This document shows, one piece after another, positions 12,531 through 60,667 of a stretch of DNA of 64,000 nucleotides (the stretch's first letter is position 1; each line of letters starts with the position of its first letter). The stretch comes from Actinopolymorpha alba DSM 45243. GTDB taxonomy: Bacteria; Actinomycetota; Actinomycetes; Propionibacteriales; Actinopolymorphaceae. Both the position numbers and the translations under genes were made by a program. A model generated the notes under the pieces. It had not been told where the DNA came from and did not search any database. It worked only from the letters and a program-made list of their open reading frames with translations. The stretch covers positions 17,763 through 81,762 of the forward strand of contig NZ_KB892741.1 of the NCBI RefSeq assembly GCF_000373925.1, written 5' to 3'.

Positions 12531-13454
12531 ATGATGAAATCGCACCCGCAGCGTATTCGCCGGCGACGTCGAATTCGAGGGCGGGTCGTACGACTCGCAC
12601 TCAGCTGTACCGTCGCCGTCGCCGGGGCCGCCACCGTCGTCGGGCTCGCTGGCAGCACGCCACGCCACCTAGGCTCAGCGTCCCTGTCGGCGGTTGTGCC
12701 CGCCGGACGGCAGGGGCCAGTCGAAAGTGCCGCACCAAAGTCCACCGGGGAAGGATCTGCCGGTGTCCGGGCAGAGGTGAAGTCTGACAACGGCGCCGGC
12801 CAGGAGGCGAGCCCGGTCGAGAGTGCCACAGAGTCCACTGACGGAGCCGCACCGACGTCGACCGAAGAAGCCGCGCCGACGTCGACCGAGGAAGCCGCGG
12901 GAGAGGCGACCGGTAGTGAACCGGAGCAATCGGACCAGGCCTCGACTGATGCCTCGACTGATGCCTCGACGACCAGCTGGGACGAGCAGGACGCGGCACG
13001 TAAGCGGGCCGCCGAGCAGGTCGCACGGCATGACAGAACGGATCCCGACTGGGTCCTTCCGGTGCGTTCCTGGTCGTATCACCTCACCGGCCGGTTCAAA
13101 GACAGCGGCGACAACTGGAAGTCGTACCACCACGGACTCGACTTCGCGGCGCCCTATGGCACGCCCATCCGTGCGGTCCACAAGGGCCGGATCATCGCGG
13201 CTGGCTGGAGTGGTGCGTACGGCAAGCGGATCAAGGTCAAGCATTCCGACGGCACGGTGACGTTGTACGGGCACATGGCCAGCTTCGAACGTACCTCCGG
13301 AAAGGTCCGTGCCGGCACGATCATCGGTTATGTCGGAGCAACCGGAAACGTCACCGGTCCGCACGTCCATCTGGAGGTACGCCCCGACGGCGGCGGACTC
13401 TCCGACGCGATCGACCCGATGGACTGGCTCCAGGACAAGGGCCTGGATCCCTGA
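12531..13454 (+). CDS. Secreted M23 (LytM) peptidase, copy 1
   Basis: A 307-residue exported peptidoglycan endopeptidase. The start at 12531 is favoured by GAGGTAGGA. An Arg-rich N-terminus plus hydrophobic segment (residues about 22-45) is a signal peptide or anchor. Then comes a Ser/Thr/Glu/Asp-rich linker with short repeats (PTSTEEAA twice, STDA twice). The C-terminal 120 residues are a LytM domain with zinc ligands His200, Asp204 and His280, and the second histidine of HVH at 278. All catalytic residues are present, so it is probably active on cross-bridges. A paralogue with a near-identical domain follows 512 bases downstream. Confidence 0.92.
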   Translation: MMKSHPQRIRRRRRIRGRVVRLALSCTVAVAGAATVVGLAGSTPRHLGSASLSAVVPAGRQGPVESAAPKSTGEGSAGVRAEVKSDNGAGQEASPVESATESTDGAAPTSTEEAAPTSTEEAAGEATGSEPEQSDQASTDASTDASTTSWDEQDAARKRAAEQVARHDRTDPDWVLPVRSWSYHLTGRFKDSGDNWKSYHHGLDFAAPYGTPIRAVHKGRIIAAGWSGAYGKRIKVKHSDGTVTLYGHMASFERTSGKVRAGTIIGYVGATGNVTGPHVHLEVRPDGGGLSDAIDPMDWLQDKGLDP

Positions 13455-13966: not shown

Positions 13967-14824
13967 GTGGAACCCTTCGTACGACGTTTCCGTGCCCTGT
14001 GGGCTGTTCGGTGGCGCGATATCCCAGTCCTTGCCCTGGCCGGGGCGGTGGTCCTGCTCGGCGCCGCAGGAGCCGGAACGGCGCTCGCCGTCACCGCCGG
14101 CACGCCGTCTGAGAACTCCGTCTCCACCGCGGCGTCGAAGCAACTCGCGGCTGAGGATGCGCGGGCTGACACAGGTGGACCTGACACAGGTGGACCTGGC
14201 TCAGGTGGACCGGCCTCGGGCGGAGCGTCGGCGTCCGACCAGTCCGGCTCCGGGCAGGTGGCCGCGGACGCGGCAGGCAAGCGGATCGCCCCGCAGCAGG
14301 ACGCCGCCCGCCGTCGGGCGTCCGAGCGGAAGGCGACCCGGGCCGAGCGGAAGGCGACCCGGGCCGAGCGGAAGGCGACCGGGGCCGGGCGGAAGCCGGC
14401 CCAGGCTGACCGGAAGTCCCGGAACTGGGTGCTGCCGCTGGCGTCGTACCACCTGACCGGGCGGTTCGGGCAGAGCGGCCGCCGGTGGTCGTCGTTCCAT
14501 CACGGTCTCGACTTCGCCGCGCCGTCGGGTACGCCCATCCGCGCGGTCGGTAACGGCCGGATCATCGCGGCCGGCTGGGCGGGTGCGTACGGCAACCACC
14601 TCGAGGTCCGGCACTCCGACGGCACGGTCACGTGGTACGCCCACATGTCCCGGTACGCGCGTACCTCCGGGAAGGTGAAGGCCGGGACCGTGATCGGCTA
14701 CGTCGGGGCCACCGGCAACGTCACGGGCCCGCACCTGCACCTGGAGGTCCACCCCAACGGGGGTGGCCTGTCTGACGCGATCAACCCGGTCAACTGGCTG
14801 AAGCGTAAAGGCCTGAACCCCTGA
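13967..14824 (+). CDS. Secreted M23 (LytM) peptidase, copy 2
   Basis: About 285 residues from the GTG at 13967; a TTG at 13952 is in frame and neither has a clear ribosome site. A transmembrane or signal segment at about residues 20-40 is followed by a linker first rich in Gly/Ser/Asp (DTGGPDTGGPGSGG) and then carrying basic tandem heptads (RKATRAE). The C-terminal LytM domain has His178, Asp182 and the HLH pair (256, 258). It is close to copy 1 throughout, but the linkers are unrelated: acidic in copy 1, basic in copy 2. That suggests the same enzymatic function at different wall locations or polymers. Fold-back repeats flank the gene on both sides. Confidence 0.9.
   Translation: MEPFVRRFRALWAVRWRDIPVLALAGAVVLLGAAGAGTALAVTAGTPSENSVSTAASKQLAAEDARADTGGPDTGGPGSGGPASGGASASDQSGSGQVAADAAGKRIAPQQDAARRRASERKATRAERKATRAERKATGAGRKPAQADRKSRNWVLPLASYHLTGRFGQSGRRWSSFHHGLDFAAPSGTPIRAVGNGRIIAAGWAGAYGNHLEVRHSDGTVTWYAHMSRYARTSGKVKAGTVIGYVGATGNVTGPHLHLEVHPNGGGLSDAINPVNWLKRKGLNP
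14328..14391. repeat. 21-bp tandem repeat in the second M23 gene linker
   Basis: GAGCGGAAGGCGACCCGGGC-type units of 21 bases occur three times, with a diverged fourth, encoding RKATRAE heptads. Being a multiple of three, changes in copy number alter only linker length. Confidence 0.85.
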
Positions 14825-23187: not shown

Positions 23188-24153
23188 ATGGGTGAGATTC
23201 TCGTCCTCGTCGACCACGCCGACGGGGTGGTACGCAAGACCGCCATGGAGCTCCTGACCATCGCCCGGCGTCTTGGGGAGCCGGCGGCGGTCTTTGTCGG
23301 GACCGGGTACGAACGCGCCAAGGACACCCTCGCGGCGTACGGCGCGCAGAAGGTCTACCTGCTCGAGCAGCCCGAGCTGACGGAGTACCTCGTGGCACCG
23401 CAGGCGGACGCACTCGCCCAACTCGCCGAACGGGCCCAACCGGCCGCGATCCTGCTGACCTCGAACTCCGACGGCAAGGAGATCGCCGGGCGGCTCGCGA
23501 TCAAGCTCGGCTCCGGCCTGGTGACGGACGCGGTCGACGTGGTGGCGGGCGACGATGGTGCCCCGGTCGCGACGCAGTCCGTGTTCGCCGGCAACTACTC
23601 AGTCCAGGCGAAGGTCACCCACGGGACCCCCATCATCACTGTGAAGCCGAACGCCGCGACTCCCGAGCCCGCGGCGGCACAGCCGGTCGAGGAGAAGGTC
23701 GGCGTCACGATCTCTGAGGCGGCGAAGGGTGCCCGGGTGGTCGAGCGTGCGCCGCGTACCCAGACCGGGCGGCCCGACCTCACCGAGGCCGCGGTCGTCG
23801 TGTCGGGTGGTCGTGGTGTCGGCTCGGCGGAGAACTTCACCGTTGTCGAAGGGCTCGCTGACGCGCTCGGCGGCGCGGTCGGTGCGTCGCGGGCGGCGGT
23901 CGACTCCGGGTGGTACCCCCACGCCTATCAGGTCGGGCAGACCGGCAAGACCGTCTCGCCGCAGTTGTACGTCGCGGCCGGCATCTCCGGCGCGATCCAG
24001 CACCGTGCCGGCATGCAGACCTCCCGGACGATCGTCGTCGTCAACAAGGACCCGGAGGCTCCGATCTTCGAGATGGCCGACTTCGGAGTCGTCGGCGACC
24101 TCCACAAGGTGCTCCCGCAGGCGACGGAGGAGATCACCCGCCGTAAGGGCTAG
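23188..24153 (+). CDS. etfA: Electron transfer flavoprotein alpha subunit
   Basis: 321 residues, ATG with AGAAGG upstream. The C-terminal FAD-binding domain is clear: [57 protein letters not shown] and [11 protein letters not shown]-type [22 protein letters not shown]. It completes the heterodimer with EtfB. The N-terminal domain (residues 1-190) has the usual ETF alpha pattern. No ETF dehydrogenase is visible in the window. Confidence 0.96.
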
Positions 24154-24646
24154 ACCGTGTCTTGTCTGTGGTGCTGAGGCTTATTCAGAACCCATCGCCT
24201 TGGGCACGGTTCTTTTGGATCCGGTCGAGCGAAGTTGATCAACGGCGGCGGAACCGGACACCCGCAGCGGTGAACGCCCGAAGCCGGGACCGTTGATCAA
24301 TTTCGCGGATGTGCGGGCCAGGATGAGGAAGAGATCTCGGCGCTAGGTGGCCAATCGGGCAAGGCAATGGAGCATTTCCGCATCCGGAGCACCGGAAAAG
24401 CTCCACTGCTCTAGGCCCGCGCTCCTGCGGCGGCCAAGTTGTCTCACGAACCCAGGCTCGAAGATCGTCCTCGATGCGAGATCGGCCACCGCGGCTGCCA
24501 TGACCTGGCAGAGGTGACGAAGCTGAGACACCTCCACCAAGTCCTCGCGCCGCTCGGGGCACGGCAGGGCACCCGCCGGGTAGGCCGATCCTCATCCACG
24601 ACGGTCAGTCAGACCAAGACCTCAACGAAGATCTACGGAACACGCG
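24154..24646. other. Intergenic region with repeat remnants
   Basis: About 490 bases with no convincing gene. It holds a 19-base copy of TGAGGCTTATTCAGAACCC (24175-24193; other copy at 14936), a TTGATCAA fold-back (24231-24304) and ATGCGAGATCGGCCACCG (24474-24491), preceded by GTCTCACG. A related arrangement is seen at 45624-45763. Confidence 0.6.
24231..24304. repeat. TTGATCAA fold-back
   Basis: GAAGTTGATCAACGG (24231-24245) and CCGTTGATCAATTTC (24290-24304) are imperfect inverted arms, separated by 44 bases. Confidence 0.7.
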
Positions 24647-25813
24647 CTAGTTCGTTCCGAAGAGGTCGCGGGTGTAGACCTTGTGCCGCAGGGGTTGGAC
24701 CTCGTCGGTAAGACGGTTGGCGATGATCAGGTCGGTGGTCTCGGTGAAGTGCGCGAAGTCCTCGGTCACCGGCGTGTTGTGGAAGCTGTCGGCATCGAGT
24801 GCTGGCTCGTAGATGAGGACATCGACGCCCTTGTCGCGGAGCCGCTCGATGACGCCCTGGATGCTGCTGGCACGGAAGTTGTCCGAGCCGGCCTTCATGA
24901 TGAGGCGGTAGACACCCACGCGGGTCGGTTGGCGGCTGAGGATGTCGTCGGCAATGAAGTCCATGCGGGTCGCATTGGAGTCGACGATGGCCTGGATCAG
25001 GTTCTGTGGCACGTCCGCGTAGTTGGCCAGAAGTTGCTTGGTGTCCTTGGGCAGGCAGTATCCGCCATAGCCGAAAGACGGGTTGTTGTGGTAGTCGCCG
25101 ATGCGCTGGTCGAGGCCGATACCGTCGATGATCTCCCGAGGATTGAGGCCGTGCGTCGCGGCGAAGGAGTCGAGTTCGTTGAAGTAGGCGACCCGCATGG
25201 CGAGGTAGGTGTTGGCGAAGAGCTTGATCGCCTCTGCTTCCGTGCTGCCGGTAAGCAGGACGGCGGGGTCCTCGTCGATGGCGGCATCGCGGAGCAACTC
25301 GGCGAACGTCCGCGCGCGGTCGCTGACCTCACCGACGATGATCCGGGAGGGGTGGAGGTTGTCGTACAACGCCTTGCCCTCACGGAGGAACTCCGGGGAG
25401 AAGATGACGTTCTGGGCGTCCTTGGTGACGCGAAGTCGCTCGGTGAAGCCTACTGGGACCGTTGACTTGATGACTGTCACGGCGTCGGGCTCGATGCGCA
25501 TGATGTCGTCGATGACGCTCTCGACCGTCGTGGTGTTGAAGTAGTTCGTGTCTGGGTCGTAGTCCGTCGGCGTCGCGATCACGATGAAGTCGGCGCCGGC
25601 GTAGGCGTCCTGCCTGTCGAGGGTGAATCGAAGGTTGAGTTCCTTGGTCGTCAGGTACTCGATGATCTCGGGGTCCCTGATCGGACTTTGCCGATCGTTC
25701 AGCGCCGCCACTCGGCTGGGGTCGATATCGAGACCCACGACCTCGTTGTGCTGGGCGAGGAGCACGGATATCGAGAGTCCGACGTATCCAGTACCGACGA
25801 CTGCGATCTTCAT
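24647..25813 (-). CDS. ugd: UDP-glucose 6-dehydrogenase (short, enterobacterial-type)
   Basis: 388 residues; oxidises UDP-glucose twice to UDP-glucuronate for surface polysaccharide. N-terminal NAD motif is [10 protein letters not shown] (residues 5-14); catalytic Cys253 is in [23 protein letters not shown] and [21 protein letters not shown] are family signatures. Length and these signatures match the short class typified by E. coli Ugd, rather than the longer (about 440-residue) form common in actinobacteria. It stands alone, with no glycosyltransferase genes beside it. Acquisition by transfer is possible but unproven. Confidence 0.93.
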
Positions 25814-25898
25814 GCGGCGAGGACCCTCTCTCTGCGGACCAAAGTGTCAGGAGCATACGCCCACAAAGTGATGGCGAAAGGGTCGCACTCGAGCCCCG

Positions 25899-26465
25899 GT
25901 GACCACCGATGAGGTGGCCGGGGCACTCGAGGGGTTGCGTGCTGGCGCACCTCTCGTTCACTGCCTGACCAACGTTGTCGTCGCGGGATTCACTGCCAAC
26001 GCGCTCCTGGCCGCCGGGGCGTCGCCGGCGATGGCTGATGCGGTCGAGGACGCTGAGGTGCTGGCCCGAGCGGCCGGGGGCGTCCTGGTCAACCTGGGTA
26101 CGGCCACCCACGCCTCGGCGGCGGGCATGCGGGCCGCCGTGGATCTGTGCCGCCTGGGAGCGCGGCGGGTCCTGGTCAAGGGCGGGCATCGAACCAGCGC
26201 CGGCGAGTCCGCCGATGTTTACGTCGACCGGGAGGTCACCACGTGGTTCCGGGCGCCGCGGGTCGACACCAAGCACTCCCACGGCACGGGCTGCACCCTG
26301 TCGTCCGCGATCGCGGCGCTGCGCCCCCGGCGCCCCGACTGGATCAGCGCGGTCGGTGACGCGAAGGCGTACGTCACCGAGGCGCTCGCGGCCGCCGACC
26401 GGCTCTCGGTCGGTACGGGTTGCGGACCGGTCCACCACTCCCACGCCTGGTGGGGACCGCGATGA
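25899..26465 (+). CDS. ThiM/ThiD chimera: hydroxyethylthiazole kinase N-part joined to HMP(-P) kinase C-part
   Basis: 188 residues, much shorter than either parent (about 260-280). Residues 1-80 ([28 protein letters not shown]...) are the N-terminus of hydroxyethylthiazole kinase ThiM. From about residue 84 (RRVLVKGGH) the sequence is the C-terminal half of hydroxymethylpyrimidine kinase Thi[40 protein letters not shown] and the terminal [15 protein letters not shown]. Both parents share the ribokinase fold, and the join keeps frame. The GTGC anion hole is kept, but the ThiD substrate and ATP elements of its N-half and the ThiM C-half are gone. It is most simply a deletion between neighbouring thiM and thiD genes. 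The downstream tenA remnant supports a decayed thiamin-salvage operon. Activity is doubtful. Confidence 0.75.
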
Positions 26466-26755
26466 CCGATGCCAGTGCGGCCGGTGCCCCCGGTGCCGCC
26501 GGTGCGGCCAGGACGCGCACTCCCTCGACGGGTACGCCCGGGCGCTGGCCGCAGCGGCGGTGAAGGCCGAAACGGCCGCCGACCTGACGTTCTTCGCAAA
26601 GGCGGCGTACGAGACGATCGTGGTCGAACGCGAGCCGCACCGGGTGCACGTCCACGACATCGAGCGCCATCGGCGCGCACCGACCTGCGCGGGGTACACG
26701 TCGTACCTCCTCGGCATCGCCCACACCCGCGTACGGCCGTGGCGGGCGGTGGGGT
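26462..26755 (+). pseudogene. tenA (thiaminase II) remnant
   Basis: An ATG at 26462 overlaps the chimera's stop by four bases (ATGA) and begins [16 protein letters not shown], but that frame stops after 34 codons. A different frame from 26509 encodes QDAHSLDGYARALAAAAVKA, then a segment through [20 protein letters not shown] to [14 protein letters not shown]. This is the middle of a TenA domain, after which similarity ends near 26755. So the TenA N-terminal part has been deleted out of frame and the C-terminal part lost. ThiD-TenA neighbours or fusions are common in thiamin salvage, which fits a former thiM-thiD-tenA operon. Confidence 0.7.
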
Positions 26756-26785
26756 GTCGGCAGCGGTCATTACTCTGGAGAGGCG

Positions 26786-28000
26786 ATGACCACCCGATCT
26801 CCCCACGTCTACCTCGATCACGCCGCGACGACGCCGATGCTTCCCGAGGCCGTCGCGGCGATGACGGCTCAGCTCACCCGGCTGGGCAACGCGTCGTCCC
26901 TGCATACCTCCGGCCGGGCCGCCCGGCGGGTTGTCGAGGAGGCGCGGGAGACGATCGCGAAGGCCCTGGGCGCGCGCCCGTCGGAGGTCATCTTCACTGG
27001 CGGCGGCACCGAGGCTGACAACCTCGCGGTCAAGGGGCTGTACTGGTCGCGCCGCGCCGCCGACCCCCGTCGCCGCCGGGTGCTCGCGAGCGCGGTCGAG
27101 CACCATGCCGTCCTCGACGCCGTGGCCTGGCTCGGATCGGTCGCCGGAGCGGACGTCGAGTGGCTGCCGGTCGACAAACTCGGCCGGGTCGACGTCGACG
27201 CCGTACGTTCGAGCGTCGAGCGCGACCCCGAGTCGGTGGCGCTCGTGACGCTCATGTGGGTCAACAACGAGGTCGGCACCGTCCAACCGGTCCGTGAAGT
27301 GGCCGCGATCGCGCGGCAGCACGGCATTCCCACCCACACCGACGCCGTACAGGCCGTGGGTCAGCTGCCCGTCGACTTCGCCGCGAGCGGGGTGGACGCG
27401 ATGACGGTGACCGGTCACAAGGTGGGCGGCCCGATCGGCGTCGGCGCGCTCGTCGTACGCCGGGAAACCAACCTCGTCCCAGTGCTCCACGGTGGTGGAC
27501 AGGAGCGCGACGTGCGCTCTGGGACGCTCGACGTTCCGGCGATCGCCGGCTTCGCGGCCGCCCTGGAGATCGCGACCGCGGAGCAGCCGGCCCGAGCCGC
27601 CACGCTGGCCGGGCTCCGGGACGAGCTGATCCGGCAGGTGCGGGCCGCGGTTCCAGAGGCCGAGCTCAACGGCGACCCCGACCCGTCCGTGGAGCACCGG
27701 TTGCCGGGCAACGCGCACTTCTCGTTCCCCGGCTGCGAGGGCGACTCCCTGCTGTTGCTGTTGGACGCTCGCGGCATCGAGTGCTCGACGGGTTCGGCGT
27801 GCTCGGCCGGAGTCGCCGAGCCGAGCCACGTCCTCATCGCCATGGGCCGTGACGAAGAACGCGCCCGTGGATCGCTTCGGTTCAGCCTGGGGCACACGTC
27901 GACCCGTGCCGAGGTCGACGCGCTCGGTGCGGCGATCGGTCCGGTCGTCGAGCGTGCCCGCGCCGCGGGCCTGGTCAACGTGAGTGGAGGAACGTTCTGA
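26786..28000 (+). CDS. Cysteine desulfurase (IscS/NifS family)
   Basis: 404 residues, start ATG with GGAGAGG upstream. PLP enzyme that releases sulfur from cysteine onto its own cysteine. Visible features: N-terminal [28 protein letters not shown] lysine K212 in TGHKVGG and persulfide cysteine C339 in STGSACSAG, which identify the class I IscS-like group. The stop overlaps mnmA by one base (TGATG). It therefore most likely feeds sulfur to tRNA thiolation, and possibly to Fe-S clusters as well. It begins only about 30 bases beyond the tenA remnant. Confidence 0.95.
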
Positions 28001-59991: not shown

Positions 59992-60558
59992 TCAGCGACG
60001 CGTGGCGATCAGGACGCTCGCATCGGAGGCCACCATCACCTCGACGGTGCTGAACCTCGAATCGGTCAGCCACTGCTGGCGTACCGTGTCAACCCGGCCT
60101 TGATACATCGGCGGCCAGGTGGCGCAGGGGGTGAAGTCGTCGAGTACGACGAAGCCGCCGGGCTCGACCAGGTCGGCAGCCATGTCGGGCCCCGCGCGCT
60201 TGGCCTCGCGAACATCGAGGAACAGCAGTGAGAACGGCGCTTCCGGCGCAAGATCCTTCCAGTCCGCTTCGAGGACGCTCACGGTCTCATCGCCGGCGAA
60301 GATCTCGCGCACGGCCTCGACCAGGCCCGCGTCGTGCTCGGCGGTGAGCAGGTGGGCGCCCGCGCGCATCCCGCTGCGCAGCCAGGCCGAACCCACGCCA
60401 CAGCCGGTGCCCAACTCCGCGAGTGTGCCGGTACGCGAAGTCGCCAGGCTCGCGAGGAGCCAGCCGGTCTCGTTACGGCAGGACGACACGAAGCCGCGCC
60501 GGCGGGAGAGTTCGTGCGCCCGAGCCACGATGCCCGGAACGTGCGGCAACGCGCTCAT
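59992..60558 (-). CDS. O-methyltransferase-like SAM-dependent methyltransferase
   Basis: 188 residues from ATG 60558 (GCGAGGA upstream), beginning SALPHVPGIVARAHELSRRRGF. Motif I LAELGTGCGVGSAWL, VLEADWKDL, FSLLFLDVREAK and GGFVVLDDFTP fit the O-methyltransferase 3-like group. The substrate is unknown. The start region (60554-60587) is copied almost exactly at 60634-60667, which creates a spurious longer frame. Confidence 0.8.
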   Translation of the reverse strand: MSALPHVPGIVARAHELSRRRGFVSSCRNETGWLLASLATSRTGTLAELGTGCGVGSAWLRSGMRAGAHLLTAEHDAGLVEAVREIFAGDETVSVLEADWKDLAPEAPFSLLFLDVREAKRAGPDMAADLVEPGGFVVLDDFTPCATWPPMYQGRVDTVRQQWLTDSRFSTVEVMVASDASVLIATRR

Positions 60559-60667
60559 GCACGTCCTCGCTTCGCTCCGGGCGCGCATGAGGCACTCGAG
60601 GCGCTGTGCTTGATGATTCGCTCGCTGCGCTCCCTCATGCACGTCCTCGCTTGGCTCCGGGCGTGCA
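60554..60667. repeat. 34-bp direct repeat around a methyltransferase start
   Basis: CTCATGCACGTCCTCGCTT... occurs at 60554-60587 and 60634-60667 with two mismatches. The left copy contains the start codon and ribosome site of the methyltransferase gene. Confidence 0.85.

Follow-up and report, generated by a model that had tools for sequence, protein, structure and literature searches.

The window, a stretch of 64,000 nucleotides from Actinopolymorpha alba DSM 45243, lies on contig C35 of a draft assembly of 7.98 Mb (127 contigs, 95.9% complete), and was compared with seven relatives in the family (G001-G007), among them A. pittospori (G003) and A. rutila (G004). Most of its coding stretches are collinear with those of A. 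pittospori and G002. The locus discussed here is bordered by an intact etfA (23188..24153, + strand) on the left and an intact cysteine desulfurase gene (26786..28000, + strand) on the right, both syntenic and identified by Pfam matches and homology to the relatives. In five congeners, including A. pittospori and A. rutila, the locus is intact and reads etfBA, TPP riboswitch, thiM-thiE-thiD-tenA, cysteine desulfurase, mnmA. Six relatives (the five congeners and G006) have separate, intact thiM, thiE and thiD genes at this site, tenA is also present there in the five congeners, and an RF00059 TPP riboswitch lies upstream in all seven. The A. pittospori proteins have 269 (ThiM), 234 (ThiE), 272 (ThiD) and 218 (TenA) amino acids. 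The operons of A. pittospori (NZ_JADBEM010000001.1) and A. rutila (NZ_JACBZH010000001.1) share site and gene order with the remnant in the window, and the thi fragments are 65-78% identical to their counterparts there. However, those operons are intact and carry their riboswitch, whereas the remnant is deleted, leaderless and fused. Among the other relatives, G006, which belongs to another genus of the family, has no tenA at its thi locus, and G007 has no thiM there.

The centre of the remnant is an open reading frame that runs from a GTG codon at 25899 to 26465 (+ strand) and encodes 188 amino acids without an internal stop. Pfam assigns residues 11-82 to PF02110 (HK/ThiM; E 3.2e-20, profile positions 2-73 of 247) and residues 74-179 to PF08543 (ThiD; E 6.1e-27, 142-246 of 246). 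In NCBIfam, TIGR00694 (ThiM) matches residues 12-83 (profile 3-74 of 249) with 73.8 bits against a cut-off of 256.4, and TIGR00097 (ThiD) matches residues 69-180 (145-253 of 254) with 98.3 bits against 204.95. These separate, adjoining matches bear out an earlier note on this DNA, which had described the frame as ThiM-like at first and as the C-terminal half of ThiD thereafter. The note's alternative, a product that aligns over its full length with one known short family, found no counterpart: neither Pfam nor NCBIfam gave a full-length match to any single-function family, and the long NCBIfam matches are ThiD-type models that span both homologous halves.

The thiM part (25899..26138, + strand) corresponds to codons ~8/9-87 of ~269, according to PF02110 and the alignments, with 75-78% amino acid identity to the congeners. 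The thiD part (26142..26465, + strand) corresponds to codons ~166-272 of 272, stop included, according to PF08543, with 65-73% identity. Residues 1-80 of the product thus resemble ThiM (hydroxyethylthiazole kinase; PF02110, TIGR00694), but lack the last two thirds of that protein, including the VLDPV and RGNxSE motifs. Residues 81-188 resemble ThiD (HMP/HMP-P kinase; PF08543, TIGR00097) and keep its HGTGC motif, but the first ~165 residues are missing. Compared with the relatives, the stretch from codon ~87 of thiM to codon ~166 of thiD is shorter by 1,708-1,750 nt, and this deletion of ~1.7 kb took the rest of thiM, the entire thiE and half of thiD. It may have gone through a short putative GGCCGCCG-like microhomology shared by both ends at 26130..26141 (+ strand).

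Upstream, a remnant of the TPP riboswitch (from its 3' third) and thiM leader persists at 25869..25898 (+ strand), where the local alignment to A. pittospori starts at 25869, and the 5' two thirds of the riboswitch are gone. The native thiM ATG is missing as well: there is an alignment gap opposite GATGG of A. pittospori, and the GTG start of the chimera aligns to an internal valine codon of intact thiM. No RF00059 riboswitch was found in the window at the gathering score, and none around the thiM leader at E<=1. A promoter scan found nothing, although such a scan says little in actinobacteria. The site of the 5' part of the riboswitch is occupied by an acquired segment between etfA and thiM (24154..25868), which by synteny is absent from the relatives and has a GC content of 62%, against 70-73% in its neighbours. 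It carries a UDP-glucose 6-dehydrogenase-like gene (24647..25813, - strand; NCBIfam, Pfam) that is divergent from the chimera and matches TIGR03026 above its cut-off and NF011631 with E 1.6e-180 and 600 bits, under the model cut-off of 757. A palindromic unit of ~70 nt lies 3' of etfA (24229-24306) and has a copy of 79% identity on another contig (L049, 1971-2038).

Downstream, the stop codon of the chimera and the start codon of tenA overlap in an ATGA at 26462-26465, as noted earlier, and the same overlap is present in A. pittospori. According to the reading frame and the alignment to A. pittospori, the tenA start codon is followed by ~16 Gly/Ala-rich codons (26462..26508, + strand), after which the frame is lost; the frame opened at 26462 meets stops soon after its first 16 residues. 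The part of TenA ahead of QD, 43 residues long in A. pittospori, has been deleted or can no longer be recognised. A central fragment at 26509..26730 (+ strand), in another frame, covers TenA residues 44-117 of 218, with 64-68% identity to the congeners in tblastn and a PF03070 E-value of 0.03. A second tenA deletion, seen in the alignment at 26731..26785 (+ strand), removed the C-terminal ~100 codons and joined the fragment to the conserved end of the tenA-cysD intergenic region; positions 26746-26792 align directly upstream of the A. pittospori cysteine desulfurase gene. Thus, residues 44-117 are still recognisable as TenA (PF03070), but the remnant lacks both ends, is out of frame and stays below the Pfam cut-off.

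The earlier note had attributed this state to two deletions in one operon of neighbouring thiM, thiD and tenA genes. Collapse by deletion is confirmed, but the count was too low, since the locus has four or more lesions and, in addition, an insertion. The three genes are indeed operon neighbours in the congeners; what the list omitted is thiE, which sat between thiM and thiD and was lost whole. The comparison with the syntenic locus that the note had called for, which gave intact thiM, thiE and thiD in six relatives, and the loss of the riboswitch leader and the native start in A. alba favour the reading as a snapshot of decay. By truncation or frameshift relative to syntenic intact orthologues, the remnant classifies as pseudogenic. 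Judging from the gene content of the loci, piecemeal loss of the thi operon is not unique to A. alba, which is the most advanced case among the genomes seen.

The earlier note had suggested that the chimera of these two ribokinase-fold enzymes, if expressed, is a natural domain-swap experiment. This is not supported: the folds of ThiM and ThiD are homologous, but the positions at which they are joined do not correspond to each other. The ThiM part stops in the helix after the NLGT strand and the ThiD part restarts just ahead of the VLLKGG strand, which leaves the chimera without ~70 residues of the ribokinase core. In a model of the intact A. pittospori ThiD (AlphaFold2, pLDDT 82, pTM 0.85), the lost stretch comprises strand 103-107 (VVLDP), the TPN strand, helices 121-134 and 142-149, and the greater part of helix 157-169. 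The model of the chimera has a pLDDT of 68 (mostly 40-60 in the N-terminal half) and a pTM of 0.64, from an input alignment with an 11-residue misplacement in the ThiD half. It superposes poorly on solved kinases, with TM-scores from 0.36 to 0.58 and an rmsd of mostly 7-10 Å, in what is a soft comparison with an imperfect alignment at the join.

In S. aureus ThiM, Mg2+ is bound by D88, K115 and E120, and THZ is contacted by N19, V21, P37-A38-M39 and G61 (PMC4785402). Assigned by motif position, the metal ligands fall in VLDPV and RGNxSE. Both motifs are absent from the chimera, as is TPNxxE, the ThiD counterpart, and the matching ThiD columns D107, T139, P140, N141 and E144 are invariant in 23 ThiD sequences. 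The motifs of the THZ contacts are kept (LTNVV at 23-27, SPAM at 42-45, NLGT at 65-68), and so is the ThiD anion hole with the catalytic cysteine (HGTGC at 128-132). Because two central β-strands and the Mg2+ ligands are missing, it is to be expected that the product is either not made or, if made, phosphorylates nothing.

The frame of the chimera is open, but in this GC-rich DNA an antisense frame that covers the same stretch (597 bases) contains no stop either. In a two-ratio codon model, omega on the branch of A. alba is 0.04 for the thiM part, 0.02 for the thiD part and 0.05 for the broken tenA part. The model is uninformative here, with saturated dS and a long branch before decay that masks relaxation, and the broken tenA, taken as a control, gives the same omega as the chimera. 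Since tenA is plainly broken and yet equally low, the low values reflect the long time before decay. These data hold no evidence of selection on the chimera. Neither the relative amino acid rates nor the codon model indicated any acceleration of amino acid change in the fragments. Family-conserved residues are kept nearly as often as in the intact relatives; notable among the few violations are F100S, in the VHHFHAW end of the ThiD part, which is 99% conserved, and, in the tenA part, Y5S and L43P. The small number of violations would point to a recent loss, and the open frame, the unaccelerated change and the kept residues would be compatible with a recent decay as well as with weak retention.

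The remaining thiamin pathway was searched in the whole assembly, which included the search for thiM and thiD elsewhere in the genome that had been proposed. No other ThiM, no other or complete ThiD, no ThiE and no other TenA were found in the assembly; two weak ThiD matches are PfkB sugar kinases. For ThiG, there are only weak partial matches. ThiC was found neither in A. alba nor in the seven relatives, and a true TPK in none of the eight family genomes, where the sole match in each is a SteA-like protein. In contrast to these absences, ThiL is intact, and a TPP riboswitch precedes an intact ykoE-ykoD-ykoC transporter. The entire family (eight genomes, G000-G007) seems to depend on thiamin salvage, because all eight lack ThiC and have only the SteA-like match for TPK. 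Presumably, the relatives can recycle thiamin breakdown products, or HMP and THZ, by way of TenA, ThiM, ThiD, ThiE and ThiL, whereas A. alba cannot.

Taken together, the locus is very likely a decayed thiM-thiE-thiD-tenA salvage operon that died recently, and not a working domain swap. The fused gene in particular is almost certainly a dead remnant, since it no longer has its regulatory switch, the start codon native to thiM or the core that binds the metal. The deletion of ~1.7 kb removed thiE and joined codons ~8-87 of thiM to codons ~166-272 of thiD, tenA lost both ends, and the leader lost the 5' part of the riboswitch with the native thiM start, where the low-GC segment of 1.7 kb now stands. 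The open frame of the fusion would be an accident, as the earlier note had supposed, since the phase is right in one case out of three and frames stay open easily in DNA of 73% GC. Measured against the divergence from A. pittospori, the loss of the operon would be recent.

It could be argued that the chimera functions as a small enzyme or regulator of the ribokinase fold, with a substrate pocket from ThiM and, from ThiD, the catalytic cysteine and the anion hole (GTGC), given that LTNxV, SPAM, NLGT and HGTGC are all kept, conserved residues are largely unchanged and the frame is open. This is highly improbable in view of the ~70 missing core residues with their Mg2+ ligands, the F100S replacement, and the loss of start codon and riboswitch. 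Moreover, any product would have no user without ThiE, the antisense frame is equally open, and the broken tenA has the same evolutionary signal. Hardly more probable is an assembly collapse, in which the operon is intact in the real genome and pieces that lie far apart were wrongly joined in the contig. A draft of 127 contigs might raise this suspicion, but the homology at the junction (~8 nt) is presumably too short to mislead an assembler, the removed genes are nowhere else in the assembly, and the flanks are collinear with the relatives. The riboswitch, the start codon and both ends of tenA are independent lesions at separate places, and conserved tenA residues have changed (Y5S, L43P).

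A further scenario supplies a cause for the decay of the operon rather than opposing it. The strain may have gained another thiamin route, for example a thiamin kinase feeding ThiL or the import of TMP or TPP, after which the operon was dispensable and decayed. In its favour, ThiL and the riboswitch-controlled YkoEDC are intact in an assembly that lacks ThiM, ThiE, ThiD, TenA and ThiC. However, no replacing gene was found, the only TPK-like match being the SteA-like protein common to the eight family genomes, and the scenario is no more than tentative. The cell probably lives on a vitamer imported by YkoEDC, together with ThiL. If every known step from imported precursors or from thiamin to TMP has been lost, while ThiL and the riboswitch-controlled YkoEDC are kept, an unrecognised thiamin kinase would feed ThiL, or TMP or TPP would be imported directly, a reading that we consider rather unlikely. 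The dull answer would be that the source of TMP is a gene in the ~4% of the genome missing from the assembly. No paper on thiamin in Actinopolymorpha was found in the literature searched.

The locus shows, within clear boundaries, how an operon dies piecemeal. It also calls for caution: where the GC content reaches 70% or more, a chimera that matches two domains well can stay open in frame by accident, and automatic annotation could label this frame ThiM or ThiD and so attribute to the strain a pathway that it does not have. The physiological gap, with ThiL and YkoEDC kept and no TMP maker seen in the assembly, is testable, as the genus can be cultivated.

Some minor features were seen in passing. 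A TPP-riboswitch-like element on another contig (L049, G000:C124, 4275-4388) scores 54.0 bits against a gathering score of 54.3, and lies upstream of a DUF1918 and CBS-domain gene, which is not a thiamin gene. A dispersed, partly tandem family of ~40-nt repeats (CGCTCGCTCATGCGCGTCCTCGCTTCGCTCCGGGCGCGCC...) is present at positions 60552-60667 of the window, in L048 (5605-5716) and in L049 (5720-5881), and one set of these repeats sits at the ykoD end. Finally, positions 13050-13451 and 14423-14821 of the window match one and the same gene of the relatives, with identities of 71% and 75% to that of G002, which looks like a local duplication.
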